Shown here in pieces: positions 27,391 through 62,786 of a stretch of 64,000 nt of DNA. This stretch comes from Chryseobacterium cucumeris. GTDB taxonomy: Bacteria; Bacteroidota; Bacteroidia; Flavobacteriales; Weeksellaceae. Each line of letters opens with the position of its first letter. The stretch's first letter is position 1. The stretch covers positions 62,001 to 126,000 of the forward strand of contig NZ_CP068760.1 of assembly GCF_016775705.1 (NCBI RefSeq), in the 5' to 3' direction. The notes beneath the pieces were generated by a model. The model had not been told where the DNA came from and made no database searches. It saw only the letters and a list, made by a program, of their open reading frames with translations. The translations under genes and the position numbers were made by a program.

Positions 27391-27492
27391 AATAGGGTTG
27401 GATGGTGGAAGCGTGAAGACGGAGATTTAAAATCATTACGTTTTGAGAAACTTCATTCTTCAAGCCTATGACTTCCAGCTTAAAAAAAACCA

Positions 27493-27812
27493 CGAGAAAA
27501 TCTGTAAGCCGGATTCTGTACTTCCGAAGAAGTGCCTGTTATTTATCTACGTATTACATTGCTGCAATACTTGAGCTGATTACCCCTCGGCTTTCAGGAC
27601 GAGCCGCCCCTATTTTCATTGCTGAAAAGAACCGATATACTTATCATTGCACCGCAAAGAGTTTACCTGGTTTCACTACAGCCGAACTGTACCTGCTTTC
27701 TGTTGCACTTGTCCTACCCTCACGGGTGACGGATGTTATCCGCTTTGCTGCTCTATGGTGTCCGGACTTTCCTACCTCCTGTAAACAGGAAATCAACAAG
27801 CCGATTTTCTCG
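27493..27812 (-). ncRNA. rnpB: RNase P RNA (M1-type)
   Basis: About 320 nt on the - strand. Conserved blocks are recognisable: GGTAGGAAAGTCCGGAC (complement of about 27760-27776) near the 5' end and ACAGAATCCGGCTTA (complement of 27505-27519) near the 3' end. The ends pair perfectly as helix P1: 27803-27812 with 27493-27502 (CGAGAAAATC / GATTTTCTCG), which sets the boundaries. A run of eight T follows on the - strand at 27488-27481, serving as terminator. The catalytic RNA matures tRNA 5' ends. Apparent protein frames across this region are artefacts. Confidence 0.95.
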
Positions 27813-57739: not shown

Positions 57740-57769
57740 TTGGATCCTCAGGAATTCCCTGTATATTTG
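57740..57769 (+). promoter_or_regulatory. Promoter of the tyrS leader
   Basis: TTG (57740-57742), 19 bp, TATATTTG (57762-57769): full match to the Bacteroidota consensus. The predicted transcription start (about 57775) lies at or just before the leader ATG, so the leader peptide would be translated from a nearly leaderless mRNA. Confidence 0.7.
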
Positions 57770-57776
57770 CATCACA

Positions 57777-57875
57777 ATGAAACATCTGAACAGTATATTA
57801 CGTCTTCCATTCTTCAGTGAATATTACACTCCGGGCTATCGTTCGGGAAGACTTTCTATATCTATAATCCAATAA
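57777..57875 (+). CDS. Candidate Tyr-containing leader peptide of tyrS (32 codons)
   Basis: ATG at 57777-57779 and stop TAA at 57873-57875, located between the tyrS promoter and a terminator. Three Tyr codons occur at positions 16, 17 and 21 (EYYTPGY), a Tyr density of 3 in 6 residues just where the 8-nt string TCCGGGCT lies (57830-57837). This string is the same as the 3' arm of the tyrS terminator. Start is adjacent to the predicted RNA 5' end. Positional and codon evidence supports a regulatory leader; translation itself is not shown. Confidence 0.65.
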   Translation: MKHLNSILRLPFFSEYYTPGYRSGRLSISIIQ

Positions 57876-57896
57876 AATAATCTAACGTATATATAG

Positions 57897-57925
57897 AGCC
57901 CGGACATTACCTGTCCGGGCTTTTT
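57897..57925 (+). terminator. Attenuator terminator before tyrS
   Basis: Perfect 10-bp stem AGCCCGGACA / TGTCCGGGCT with a TTACC loop and a run of five T, 19 bp before the tyrS ATG. The 5' arm could instead pair with TCCGGGCT inside the leader reading frame (57830-57837). Confidence 0.85.
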
Positions 57926-57944
57926 CATTTTAAAACTATTCAAC

Positions 57945-59144
57945 ATGATTCATCCATTACAAGAAAATGTAGCTATCATCCTGCCTGAAAACGGTCTGGA
58001 AGAAAAACTGGCTCTGGCCTCTAAAGAAAACAGAAAACTTTCCATCAAACTGGGTTTTGATCCCACGGCTCCGGATCTTCATCTGGGGCATGCTGTGGTC
58101 TTAAAAAAACTGAAACAGTTTCAGGATCTGGGACATCAGATCATTATTGTTGTGGGAAGTTTTACAGCAAGGATTGGCGATCCCACAGGAAAAAACAAAG
58201 CAAGAAAACCTTTAAGCGCTGAAGATGTACAGCATAATGCCCAGACTTATATCAATCAGCTTTCAAAGGTAATTGATGTACAGAAGACAAAGATTGTTTT
58301 CAATTCCGACTGGCTGGATGCCCTTACTTTTTCTGAGGTGATCCAGCTTCTTTCAAGAGTTACCGTTGCACAGCTGATGCACCGAAATGATTTTAATAAA
58401 AGGTTTACAGAAAATACACCTATTGCCATGCATGAACTGGTTTACCCGATTCTTCAGGGTTTTGATTCTGTAAAAATTGAGTGCGATATCGAGATGGGAG
58501 GCACAGACCAGCTGTTCAACTGCACGATGGGAAGACAGCTTCAGGAGGTGCATCAAATGCCCGCTCAGATTGTCATGTGTATGCCCTTACTGAGAGGTCT
58601 TGACGGAAAAGAAAAAATGAGTAAATCCCTGAACAATATTATTGGATTGACGGACGAACCCAATGAAATGTTTGGAAAAACCATGTCTATTCCAGATACT
58701 TTGATTGAAGAGTTTATCAATCTTACTACCGATTTTTCTATGGAAGAAAAAACAGCAATTTTTTCCCGGTTAAACGAAGGCGAAAACCCAATGAATATTA
58801 AAAAAATCATTGCTAAAAATATCGTCAGCCAGTACCATGATTTGGCTTCAGCTGAAGATGCAGAACAGTTCTTTATCAACCAGTTTCAGAATAAAAATTT
58901 TGAAGATAAAGTGTATGAACCTGTAGCTATTGGTTCATTGAAAAGCATCAAAAATAAAATTTCTATCGTTGAACTTTGCCACCAGCTTAAAAATGACCTC
59001 AGCAAATCTGCTATCAGGAGATTGGTTGAGAGTGGAGGAATTCAGATCAATACCATTAAAATAACAGACGCAAATGAAGAGGTGGAGTTGATCCCTCAAA
59101 CTAAAATTAAAATCGGGAGAAGGGGCTTTTTTGAGCTGGTGTAA
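57945..59144 (+). CDS. tyrS: Tyrosyl-tRNA synthetase (TyrZ-type pattern)
   Basis: 399 residues. Class I synthetase charging tRNA-Tyr. HIGH motif HLGH at 46-49 (LGFDPTAPDLHLGHAVVL), Tyr-binding loop GGTDQ at 185-189, KMSKS at 224-228 and a C-terminal S4-like RNA-binding domain (KSAIRRLVESGGIQINTIKI ... KIKIGRRGFFEL). The FDPTAPDLHLGH/GSFTARIGDPTGK wording is that of the TyrZ branch rather than the common TyrS of E. coli. If the genome also carries another tyrS, this copy could be the regulated one. Controlled by the leader/attenuator upstream. Confidence 0.95.
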   Translation: MIHPLQENVAIILPENGLEEKLALASKENRKLSIKLGFDPTAPDLHLGHAVVLKKLKQFQDLGHQIIIVVGSFTARIGDPTGKNKARKPLSAEDVQHNAQTYINQLSKVIDVQKTKIVFNSDWLDALTFSEVIQLLSRVTVAQLMHRNDFNKRFTENTPIAMHELVYPILQGFDSVKIECDIEMGGTDQLFNCTMGRQLQEVHQMPAQIVMCMPLLRGLDGKEKMSKSLNNIIGLTDEPNEMFGKTMSIPDTLIEEFINLTTDFSMEEKTAIFSRLNEGENPMNIKKIIAKNIVSQYHDLASAEDAEQFFINQFQNKNFEDKVYEPVAIGSLKSIKNKISIVELCHQLKNDLSKSAIRRLVESGGIQINTIKITDANEEVELIPQTKIKIGRRGFFELV

Positions 59145-59991: not shown

Positions 59992-61503
59992 TTACTGGTT
60001 TGCCATGGTTACGTAAATCAATCTTCCGCCTTCTTCTGAGGAAAGCAGTATTTTTTTACCATCGGTAAGTTCAACCATAGAGCCTGGTGGAATTTCTTTC
60101 TGTTCTGTGATATCCTTCATTCCTGATAAGCTTTGGTTGACCAATACCCATCTTCCCTGGTGGAACGTAAAATATCCTACCGGCATTTTATCCTGCATCG
60201 TCAGATTCTCGTTGCGTATCACTTTCCTGGAAACATGCCATTTGAAAAGATACTGATTATGATAAACCATGAGCCTGTGATTTTCCGGTTTCCATACCTC
60301 ATCATCAAATTTAAAATATAAGTCTAAAACGGGTAATGTTCCCTGATGTGGTGTTCCGCAAAACGGGCATTTGGGATTGCTGGTATTATCAAAGACGTAC
60401 CATTTTTCTGTACAATCCGGATTAAGACATGGTTGGATCAGATCTACGGTTTTCAACAAAGCTGTTTCCCATTCATTGGCAGTGGGACGTCTGATGGGAT
60501 CATGTAATCCATCAACGAATGTCTTTCTGAACAATTCTGAAATATAAGGGCCTGTAACCGTATAAGGAATTTTCTGAGGGTCGCCCCAGAATGCATCCCA
60601 TTTTCTGAGATGATCGGACTTCACATGGTTGGAATTATTTTGCGGATGTTCTACAAACATTGCTTTTTCTCCCATGGACAGAATTTCATCTTTTTCAGAA
60701 TCCAGGTCCCAGATTTTACCTCCACGCAGCGGATGCCTTCTTAGCAGATACATATAAATGAGAACCGCAAGAGCATGCAGGTCTGTTTTTTGATTGGGTA
60801 AATGCCTGTCCGGATCCTGAAGTTTCAGATGTTGGGTTTTTAAAACTTCAGGCGCAATAAAGTCGGCGGTTCCTATGACTTCCGGTGGAAAGAGTCTGGG
60901 AACCACAAGACCGTCAATATCGATAATACAGGCAGATTTTGTAACGGGATCTACCAGAATATTGTTATAAGACAAATCGGAGTGTGCCAGTCCCATCTGA
61001 TGCAGCTTTTTCACTCCTCTGCTGATATTGACTGCAATCTGAAAATAGCTCAGCCAATCTCCCAATTCTGACCGATCCAGTCTCAACGGATACTGCTGAT
61101 TCCGGAACATGGGAGCGGTAAACCACTTCCCCACTTTATCCTGTCCCTGGATATTATCCGAACCGATATAACCTTTGGCAAAATAAAATTTATGGTGATA
61201 AACAGGAACTACAATTCCCGTTAGTTTATTTCTTTCAACAATATCATAAGGCCATCTGAATATTTCGTTCAGAAAGTACTCTGAAGCATTTCCACTCTGT
61301 AAACTTTGCAGATAAGTGGAAACAATTCTCATGATTCTTTCTTTTTGTCCTTCATCCAGCGGATTCCGGTAAAAAGCAACTACATATTCTTTATCAGGCG
61401 AAAAATAAACATCCTTCACCCCGCCCCGGATAGGGTTTTCATCTACGTATTCATAGGATTTGGCTGTGTCCAGAACAGAGACAACCTTAATGGTCTTTTT
61501 CAT
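59992..61503 (-). CDS. TerY-P-type protein kinase with C-terminal zinc ribbon
   Basis: 503 residues. Protein-kinase-like core with catalytic loop HSDLSYNN (174-181), metal-binding DIDG (195-198) and APE (217-219); the usual VAIK Lys is not evident, with FYR at the matching strand (VVAFYR). After the core come a zinc ribbon (Cys359, Cys364, Cys379, Cys382) and a C-terminal beta domain of about 115 residues that may be FHA-like. Last of the three TerY-P module genes; it starts 5 bp after the PP2C stop, indicating an operon. Predicted Ser/Thr kinase opposing the phosphatase upstream. Confidence 0.85.
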   Translation of the reverse strand: MKKTIKVVSVLDTAKSYEYVDENPIRGGVKDVYFSPDKEYVVAFYRNPLDEGQKERIMRIVSTYLQSLQSGNASEYFLNEIFRWPYDIVERNKLTGIVVPVYHHKFYFAKGYIGSDNIQGQDKVGKWFTAPMFRNQQYPLRLDRSELGDWLSYFQIAVNISRGVKKLHQMGLAHSDLSYNNILVDPVTKSACIIDIDGLVVPRLFPPEVIGTADFIAPEVLKTQHLKLQDPDRHLPNQKTDLHALAVLIYMYLLRRHPLRGGKIWDLDSEKDEILSMGEKAMFVEHPQNNSNHVKSDHLRKWDAFWGDPQKIPYTVTGPYISELFRKTFVDGLHDPIRRPTANEWETALLKTVDLIQPCLNPDCTEKWYVFDNTSNPKCPFCGTPHQGTLPVLDLYFKFDDEVWKPENHRLMVYHNQYLFKWHVSRKVIRNENLTMQDKMPVGYFTFHQGRWVLVNQSLSGMKDITEQKEIPPGSMVELTDGKKILLSSEEGGRLIYVTMANQ

Positions 61504-61508
61504 TCGTA

Positions 61509-62786
61509 TTAATAGATTATTGCCAATGTACGGTCATCATGATTTCCTCTGCTCCAGAAATCGCTCCAGATTAAAAGTTCTTCATCAATCTTTTCATCGT
61601 TGATAAAATCTACTTTCGCCCTGTCATCATTATTCCCGGCAAGGTCTTCAAAAAGTGCTTTCCAGTTTTCTGTGTCTTCCAGTTTGTTTTCGGTGGTAAA
61701 TTTAGGATCATAAATGCCATCTGTCATCAACACCAGATAAGAAAAATCTTCTACACAGGTGATCTGAAAACGGGAAGCTATTGTATCATTAAAAATTTCT
61801 TTCATGGTGATGAAACGTGTCCCTCCACCAAATTCTCCCACATCCATCCGGTTTAAAAGCTTAACTTCAGAAAAATCCGTGTTAATAAGATTGATCGGGC
61901 AATCTCCCACTCCAAAACTCAGCACAACATATCCGAAGCTGTACTTTTTAAGCAAAATAAAAATAAGGGTTGCATGCAGATCATTTACTGAAAAATCATT
62001 TTCCACTGCTGTTTTTTCCAGTGTTTGATAAACATGTAAAACACCTTCCGATAAGATATTGATGATATTCTGTTTAGATTCTGACTCATTTTCTACGAAA
62101 GATTGGCCGTTATACAGCATGCTGACGTTATTTTCAATCTGGTTTAAAGTCTCCTTTGAGTTAAAAAACCGGTTGATCGTTTCTGTTGCCAGTCTGGAAC
62201 CTTCTCTTGCAGCTTTTGCTGAGCCCGCTCCATCTGAAACAGCAATAATATTCCAGCCATCGGAAAGCCTATTTACAGCAAAATCGTCTTCACGAAATTT
62301 GCCTTCATGCGCATGGGAACGTCCTCTTTTGGAAGCCACCACAATTTTTTTGTCTGAAAAAGAACCTTTCAATGAGTCTTCTTCCGGTTTATAAAAAGCT
62401 GCGTTTGTATCGCTTGGAATATTCTTCCATAAGTCTTTGGGATCTGCGTTAACGAAAAGTTGTATTTTCTTAGTCTCCATCTGATGCTGATCGTGAATAT
62501 GATAAAACTGAATATCCAGATGATACATATTATTGGTAACCGGGATTCCTGAGATTGTATTGTTTTCAAAAGTAAGCCCTGTTTCTTCAATGTTTCCAAT
62601 ATTCTGAATCTTTATGTTCGGGAAATCTTCCATATCGAAAGTGAATTCATAGAACTGCTTTGCACTGGCATTTTTCAATATCCAATGAGCATCTTTGAAC
62701 TCTTCTTTTTCTTTAAAAACAACAGCTTGTTCCATCGTCTTTGACTTGGATTCTGCGGCAGACTTCCTGAAAAATTTGCCCATCAT
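61509..62786 (-). CDS. PP2C-family protein phosphatase with N-terminal Ig-like extension
   Basis: 425 residues; MMGK start at 62786 or 62783. Residues 1-150 form an uncharacterised N-terminal region with Ig-like strand pattern (GLTFENNTISGIPVTNNMYHLDIQFYHI). The PP2C part has EDD (166-168), SDGAGSA (184-190), VGDC (293-296), TDG (355-357) and DDRT (417-420), the metal-binding residues of the family. Its start codon overlaps the stop of the vWA gene by one base (TAATG). Predicted partner of the kinase and TerY proteins. Confidence 0.88.
   Translation of the reverse strand: MMGKFFRKSAAESKSKTMEQAVVFKEKEEFKDAHWILKNASAKQFYEFTFDMEDFPNIKIQNIGNIEETGLTFENNTISGIPVTNNMYHLDIQFYHIHDQHQMETKKIQLFVNADPKDLWKNIPSDTNAAFYKPEEDSLKGSFSDKKIVVASKRGRSHAHEGKFREDDFAVNRLSDGWNIIAVSDGAGSAKAAREGSRLATETINRFFNSKETLNQIENNVSMLYNGQSFVENESESKQNIINILSEGVLHVYQTLEKTAVENDFSVNDLHATLIFILLKKYSFGYVVLSFGVGDCPINLINTDFSEVKLLNRMDVGEFGGGTRFITMKEIFNDTIASRFQITCVEDFSYLVLMTDGIYDPKFTTENKLEDTENWKALFEDLAGNNDDRAKVDFINDEKIDEELLIWSDFWSRGNHDDRTLAIIY

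Follow-up and report, generated by a model that had tools for sequence, protein, structure and literature searches.

A predicted ribosome-sensed attenuator ahead of tyrS2, a second, tyrosine-poor tyrosyl-tRNA synthetase gene of Chryseobacterium

The tyrS2 locus and its distribution

The locus described here belongs to Chryseobacterium cucumeris (contig NZ_CP068760.1, 4.81 Mb long) and lies in a window of 64,000 nt, which is the whole stretch of DNA that was analysed and from whose first letter all coordinates are counted. It comprises a gene for a tyrosyl-tRNA synthetase (TyrRS), designated tyrS2, which is preceded by a promoter-like sequence, a short frame with tandem tyrosine codons and an intrinsic terminator, together with several arms able to pair with one another. 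Conservation was followed in 81 aligned loci (hereafter rows), consisting of the window and the best 80 of 191 tyrS relatives retrieved by a protein search. The features are the following:

57740 to 57769, + strand: Bacteroidota-type promoter (TTG, a 19-base spacer and TATATTTG), called from the sequence, with the box kept in relatives
57774, + strand: predicted transcription start, placed from the position of the box and the TAnnTTTG placement reported in PMC9723704
57777 to 57875, + strand: leader peptide frame MKHLNSILRLPFFSEYYTPGYRSGRLSISIIQ, 32 codons, ATG at 57777, called from the ORF, its conservation and selection on codons 2–17
57802 to 57808, + strand: segment 1, putative 5' arm of a protector hairpin, GTCTTCC, with partner GGAAGAC at 57846–57852; weak and clade-dependent
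57822 to 57827, + strand: putative regulatory Tyr codons 16 (TAT) and 17 (TAC), each of them Tyr in all 81 rows
57830 to 57833, + strand: putative 5' arm of a small hairpin, TCCG, with partner CGGG at 57844–57847; 85.1% of cells paired
57841 to 57847, + strand: segment 2, predicted antiterminator arm GTTCGGG, with its partner at 57899–57905; pairing in 81 of 81 rows
57854 to 57861, + strand: predicted upper antiterminator arm TTCTATAT, with its partner at 57891–57898; six or more of the 8 pairs form in 58 of the 63 rows of TTCGG type
57891 to 57898, + strand: predicted upper antiterminator partner ATATAGAG, which pairs with TTCTATAT
57895 to 57925, + strand: intrinsic terminator, a 12-pair stem and T-run, called from the sequence and from covariation in relatives
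57899 to 57905, + strand: segment 3, CCCGGAC, common to the antiterminator and the terminator, called from pairing and covariation
57945 to 59144, + strand: tyrS2, second TyrRS, 399 aa with 4 Tyr; TIGR00234 at 337.5 bits, PF00579 plus S4

Elsewhere in the window, a class A RNase P RNA (204 bits) is found at 27489–27812 on the − strand, and two adjacent ORFs, which by eye are kinase-like (503 aa) and PP2C-like phosphatase (425 aa), occupy 59992–62786, also on the − strand.

The assignment of the predicted tyrS2 protein to TyrRS is settled by TIGR00234 and Pfam. The same genome encodes another TyrRS (TyrRS-1, at G000:C1:3708264), which is 28% identical to tyrS2. Both kinds are present in all 16 chosen carrier genomes, and within the genus 118 of 173 genomes hold one match of the tyrS2 kind plus one more TyrRS match, 55 hold the other kind only, and none has tyrS2 as its sole match. 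Its absence from 55 of the 173 genomes, and the fact that it is never the only TyrRS match, mark tyrS2 as a dispensable second synthetase, and in this respect it resembles the inducible auxiliary aaRS of the Streptomyces TrpRS1 kind (second, dispensable, same amino acid). An earlier reading of this DNA from its letters (the sequence-only reading), which proposed a Tyr-codon leader peptide and an attenuator ahead of tyrS, overlooked that the gene encodes a second TyrRS and a tyrosine-poor one. Among the 118 carriers, two tyrS2 genes hold an in-frame stop (loci L265 and L266; one TAA in genome G098, a shortened gene with one TAA in genome G090) and one further match is partial; the G090 locus keeps an intact leader peptide.

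The closest named relatives of tyrS2, among the best 80 of 191, are from Chryseobacterium, and in an order-level sample the gene was found in 22 of 395 genomes, all of them of this genus. The named loci among the best 80 also include Flavobacterium, Arenibacter, Gelidibacter, Vaginella, Weeksella, Oceanihabitans, Profundicola and Telluribacter. In a protein tree, the leader-bearing TyrRS form one group separate from ten homologues (100/100). The gene and leader of Chryseobacterium tagetis (L090) are of the Flavobacterium type and group with Vaginella, Oceanihabitans, Arenibacter and Profundicola (100/97), a placement suggesting that the leader travelled with the gene. The Flavobacterium kind of leader, with a GCTCGG arm, is found at two loci of Chryseobacterium, L090 and L264. 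Carriage on plasmids was considered and rejected, as all 112 TyrRS-matching plasmid records are below 60% identity, and so was a common genomic site, given that the flanking genes differ between loci: within the flank examined, an oxidoreductase gene lies upstream in 37 of 80 loci and a GNAT gene downstream in 39 of 80, one locus having almost no downstream flank.

No such leader was found within 600 bases upstream of TyrRS-1 (15 loci), nor over the same distance ahead of the TyrRS of other classes that match best, at 43–48% identity (29 loci); at these control loci the best motif score was 5 of 11, with no Tyr-Tyr frame (for one locus, in the 437 upstream bases available). A covariance model of the leader (R1) matched 14 of 395 genomes of the phylum at E ≤ 0.01, under strict filters that lose weak matches. 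The two strong matches (152 and 155 bits) both lie ahead of tyrS2 in this genus, and the twelve weak ones (39–45 bits) were taken as chance terminators and not as further leaders. Across the TyrRS upstream regions and the R1 search, the leader frame was seen before no gene other than tyrS2. In the leader region no Rfam family reaches its cut-off, with only sub-threshold matches at E up to 10, and a T box or other known RNA family was discarded, there being no T-box match at the gathering level or at E up to 10.

The leader frame and its promoter

A frame of 24–37 codons precedes tyrS in all 81 rows, with the consensus MKxLNxILRLPFFSxYY and few changes. In the window, Tyr codons occupy positions 16, 17 and 21, the three pointed out by the sequence-only reading; those at 16 and 17 are kept in every row, but Tyr21 in only 45 of 81, and a Tyr at codon 18 is found in 29 of 81. 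Codon 16 is TAT throughout, codon 17 is TAT in 46 rows and TAC in 35, and the alignment is free of gaps up to Tyr17. A second set comprised 60 upstream stretches from genomes of the same genus, 26 of which share their first 110 bases with a row of the first set. The peptide with Tyr16–17 was found in 33 of the 34 new loci, and the last one is truncated by a contig end that falls within the leader, its Tyr codons being visible by eye. The same arrangement of peptide and terminator before tyrS, which had been suggested as a check in relatives, thus recurs at 81 of 81 aligned loci, and this conservation supports the proposal of a Tyr-codon leader peptide and attenuator. In being short, translated and provided with clustered cognate codons, the leader resembles those of ribosome-mediated attenuators.

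Over codons 2–17 the 81 rows give pS 0.596, pN 0.090 and dN/dS 0.081, a ratio which indicates that the frame is translated; it is 0.052 in the 62 Chryseobacterium-type rows and 0.211 in the 18 Flavobacterium-type rows. Over codons 18–27 the ratio is 1.17, and two shifted frames give 1.37 and 2.84. As read from these aligned codons, the residues up to Tyr17 are under selection as a peptide, and the selection ends at Tyr17, a property that the sequence-only reading did not notice. Selection at the peptide level would also be expected if the short frame encoded a small protein with its own function, the hairpin then being a constitutive terminator between transcription units. This is very improbable, considering that selection stops at Tyr17 and length varies between 24 and 37 aa, that the terminator arm is able to pair with the leader in every row, and that the frame was found only ahead of tyrS2 in the searches made.

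Peptide selection this strong exceeds what a pure codon counter needs, and for that reason help from the nascent chain is retained as a rival reading. In the strict form of this reading, a ligand (tyrosine, a drug or some other molecule) would prompt the nascent MKxLNxILRLPFFSxYY chain to arrest the ribosome through its contacts with the exit tunnel, and the same RNA switch would be operated. The purifying selection on codons 2–17 amid free synonymous change, its loss beyond them and the absence of gaps before Tyr17 in all rows are in favour of such an arrest peptide, of the TnaC or SecM kind. Nevertheless, tandem codons cognate to the controlled enzyme, sited where a stall acts, fit tRNA sensing, the Tyr-poor product described below fits plain tRNA sensing, and part of the peptide constraint (R9-L10-P11) coincides with the protector arm, so that arrest by the chain itself is regarded as unlikely.

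With respect to the promoter, TTG is found at 57740–57742 and TATATTTG at 57762–57769. A −7 box with at least five of its six fixed bases is present in 73 of 81 loci, 4–9 bases 5' of the leader ATG, but just 46 of these 73 have a TTG 17–23 bases further upstream, so that the full promoter proposed in the sequence-only reading holds in relatives for the box and much less for the TTG. In Flavobacterium psychrophilum, as far as reported in PMC9723704, the TAnnTTTG element is placed at −12 to −5 and leaderless mRNAs account for 5.5% of those mapped. With the box at the positions given in that report, transcription would begin near 57774, 3 nt 5' of the ATG, and the mRNA is predicted to be nearly leaderless, with a 5' UTR of 0–5 nt across loci. 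Promoter, frame, terminator and arms are each present where the sequence-only reading had put them. The numbers of promoter-like and terminator-like elements in the window sequence alone equal the shuffled mean; as a set, the elements exceed chance by virtue of their recurrence among the aligned sequences, since the frame, the two Tyr codons and the terminator are found together in 81 of 81 loci.

Competing hairpins and the sign of the switch

The terminator seen before tyrS in the sequence-only reading is confirmed. Its hairpin spans 57895–57923, with 12 pairs and a T-run after it, and recurs in all 81 rows; in the relatives 98.9% of cells are paired and four pairs show double changes. The same reading let AGCCCGGA (57897–57904), in the terminator 5' arm, choose between two partners, namely TCCGGGCT in the leader (57830–57837) and the same letters in the terminator 3' arm (57914–57921). 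The two copies are indeed identical in the window, but only 8 of 81 rows have the leader copy intact, and it does not covary with the terminator arm; the compensatory changes between the copies, proposed as a check, were not seen. TCCGGGCT was accordingly rejected as the antiterminator arm. The conserved partner is GTTCGGG (57841–57847), whose first six pairs with CCCGGAC are kept in 81 of 81 rows and whose seventh is kept in 62 (alignment A1). One core pair of this helix is U-A in 63 rows and C-G in 18, and is broken in none, although a single event on the TyrRS tree suffices to explain this double change, which counts against its weight as covariation. In the 34 new loci, a script found the antiterminator with at least six pairs in 31; the other three comprise two that were mis-called owing to a terminator mismatch and one cut by a contig end, and both arms can be read by eye in all of them.

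The upper helix between TTCTATAT and ATATAGAG is of narrower distribution. No single upper extension was found in rows outside the TTCGG type, and the helix falls at or below 10 of 200 shuffles in just 37 of 81 rows, for which reason it was rejected as a phylum-wide trait and is proposed for the TTCGG type alone. The folding energy is −21.0 kcal/mol for the terminator and −12.9 kcal/mol for the antiterminator, and this difference means that the order of synthesis must matter. By sequence and folding, the locus thus combines a terminator with a predicted antiterminator that excludes it through one common arm.

Two further hairpins may hide segment 2. The GTCTTCC/GGAAGAC pairing pointed out in the sequence-only reading is present in the window, but its support in relatives is weak and clade-dependent: 86.1% of cells are paired (a value reached by 34 of 500 shuffles), three pairs show double changes, and the covariation score is matched by 13 of 500 shuffles and the number of double-change cells by 1 of 500. 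The TCCG/CGGG hairpin would also hide segment 2, TCCG being the better conserved part of TCCGGGCT, and codon 19 is CCG in 60 of 81 rows; as a control, the same hairpin slid by one column scores higher on covariation.

The effect of ribosome position was modelled by folding the RNA as far as the loop of the terminator while a ribosome, with a footprint of 28 nt whose edges are assumed, covered part of it, and the antiterminator was scored as formed at three or more expected pairs per row. In this model it forms in 81 of 81 rows with codon 16 in the A site, in 76 with codon 17 and in 72 with codon 18, falling to 18 with codon 19 and to none with codons 20–24. For the window sequence, at least 5.5 antiterminator pairs are expected at codons 15–18, and fewer than one at 8–14 and 19–32. 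Tyr16–17 are thus among the last modelled positions at which stalling leaves the arm free. Some results count against a clean switch: a stall at codons 8–14 also frees the arm in 62–66 of 81 rows, the arm partly re-emerges at codons 29–34 (7 of 73 rows at 29, 24 of 69 at 30 and 18 of 68 at 31), and the antiterminator reaches three pairs in 34 of 81 rows without a ribosome and in 22 of 81 with the ribosome at the stop codon, so that many versions of the leader would leak, at least in this model.

Within the folding model, then, a stall frees the antiterminator and passage does not. The conserved arm GTTCGGG stays free when the ribosome is stalled at Tyr16 or Tyr17, from which it follows that stalling would favour antitermination; the sign would be classical, with uncharged tRNA-Tyr giving read-through. 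The sequence-only reading had feared the opposite, an attenuator of reversed sign in which TCCGGGCT is masked while the ribosome sits on the Tyr codons, so that termination is favoured. Such a ribosome would cover TCCGGGCT, and its helix is strong in the window sequence (−12.5 kcal/mol), but the poor conservation of this arm, its lack of covariation and the freedom of the conserved arm in the stall model leave the reversed sign with hardly any probability.

The composition of the product bears on the same question. Tyr makes up 1.0% of the 81 tyrS2 proteins, compared to 3.2% in 15 TyrRS-1 and 2.8% in 29 homologues, these controls being few and of other lineages, and in the 35 window ORFs of at least 200 aa it makes up 4.2%, with tyrS2 included and the lowest among them. 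Tyr occupies 11 alignment columns in at least 40% of either set. Three of them have been retained in tyrS2, each being Tyr in all 29 homologues and all 81 rows; in the other eight, one of which is Tyr in every one of the 29 homologues, tyrS2 shows F, V, L, I/T or E/D. Phe rises from 3.4% to 4.8%, and the two sets are unlike in further residues as well. The Tyr codons of tyrS2 are TAC in 192 cases and TAT in 131, and those of the window ORFs are 75% TAT. Among the best 120 of 7949 matches in a protein search, the named rows are nearly all Chryseobacterium, and these matches consequently offer no wider control for Tyr content. A Tyr-poor product, as deduced from the gene sequences, supports the classical sign independently of RNA folding, and it is likely that tyrS2 could still be made during a shortage of tyrosine-loaded tRNA.

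According to these data, it is highly probable that the leader is a classical ribosome-sensed attenuator, likely opening tyrS2 when charged tRNA-Tyr is short. In the proposed pathway, the RNA would begin some 3 nt 5' of the leader ATG, and a ribosome would load at once. With plentiful Tyr-tRNA, the ribosome would pass codons 16–17 and mask GTTCGGG on its way, after which the GTCTTCC/GGAAGAC and TCCG/CGGG hairpins may hide this arm again, and the terminator would form. With scarce Tyr-tRNA, the ribosome would stop at codons 16–17 and block the hiding arms, leaving GTTCGGG free to pair with CCCGGAC in a helix extended by TTCTATAT/ATATAGAG, so that the terminator would be prevented and tyrS2 read; with few Tyr in its product, the spare TyrRS would still be translatable in the inducing state. 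The most likely interpretation of sequence and model together is that tyrS2 is an emergency synthetase under ribosome-sensed attenuation, on an mRNA that is almost leaderless. A more elaborate version pictures a self-contained module of Bacteroidota for charging in emergencies: the nascent MKxLNxILRLPFFSxYY chain would aid halting at the Tyr codons of the almost leaderless attenuator, and the spare TyrRS would have been purged of tyrosine by evolution, which would allow its synthesis once Tyr-tRNA is exhausted. This version is put forward tentatively, as a conjecture with less than even chances.

Relation to known systems and significance

The trp/his and pheST systems of Proteobacteria are ribosome-mediated attenuators. 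As in these, tandem cognate codons are found in the leader, and protector, antiterminator and terminator would compete; unlike them, the target is a TyrRS, the phylum is Bacteroidota, the start is predicted to be nearly leaderless, the leader is conserved as amino acids and the target is a spare synthetase. Another case is TrpRS1 of Streptomyces coelicolor, which is controlled by attenuation. Candidate attenuators have been described for trpS2 and leuS of Streptomyces (PMC1262725), and the induction of S. coelicolor TrpRS1 by indolmycin is cited in PMC9437257. These systems resemble the present one in coupling a synthetase gene to a cognate-codon attenuator, trpS2 and TrpRS1 being second copies too, and differ in amino acid and phylum; no counterpart to the Tyr depletion was seen in the portions of those sources covered. 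The tyrZ gene of Bacillus subtilis encodes a second TyrRS and is controlled by a T box together with a MarR regulator, according to PMC9437257, and second synthetases, including TyrZ and TrpRS1, are treated in that article and in PMC4787780. Judging from those accounts, tyrZ likewise ties the expression of a second TyrRS to the charging of tRNA-Tyr; its T box reads the tRNA directly, whereas here the translating ribosome would be the sensor.

The comparison with Streptomyces TrpRS1 and B. subtilis TyrZ, as presented in PMC9437257, also speaks for a different role of the same switch, in which tyrS2, as a second, distant and dispensable copy, would serve in inducible self-protection and not in starvation, the main trigger being an inhibitor of TyrRS-1 or D-tyrosine. 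The few neighbouring genes examined, which vary by locus, include none that was recognised as an inhibitor or producer gene, and the idea is compatible with the emergency-synthetase reading, inasmuch as any block in charging would trip the leader. Self-protection as the main role is considered a real possibility, although not the expected one.

Within Bacteroidota, the Bacteroid-trp RNA motif is a hint of leader-peptide attenuation. In F. psychrophilum attenuation is hinted at for amino-acid operons, and structured 5' UTRs are described for aaRS genes (PMC9723704, whose main text does not mention tyrS); leader-like sORFs have been reported in 5' UTRs of Bacteroides thetaiotaomicron (PMC7366714). 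As far as these sources go, the tyrS2 leader joins such cases as a further indication of leader-peptide attenuation in the phylum. A survey of premature terminators across bacteria has a main text that mentions neither Bacteroidetes nor tyrS (PMC2965389), and distances between leaders and genes, Bacteroidetes included, are given in PMC4833913. In the literature searched, which consisted of titles and abstracts and few subscription journals, no tyrS attenuator of Bacteroidota was found. The idea that synthetases avoid their cognate amino acid predates this case. The regulatory logic is already known, and it is the TyrRS target, the peptide constraint and the tyrosine-poor product that look new.

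If true, this would be a translation-sensed TyrRS attenuator in a phylum where such switches have only been hinted at, joining the sensing of cognate codons to a second, dispensable synthetase that itself contains little of the scarce residue. It would allow a direct test of whether the enzymes of a shortage state are selected to avoid the residue that is short, as well as of the way in which translation begun on an almost leaderless mRNA is coupled to transcription in Bacteroidota.
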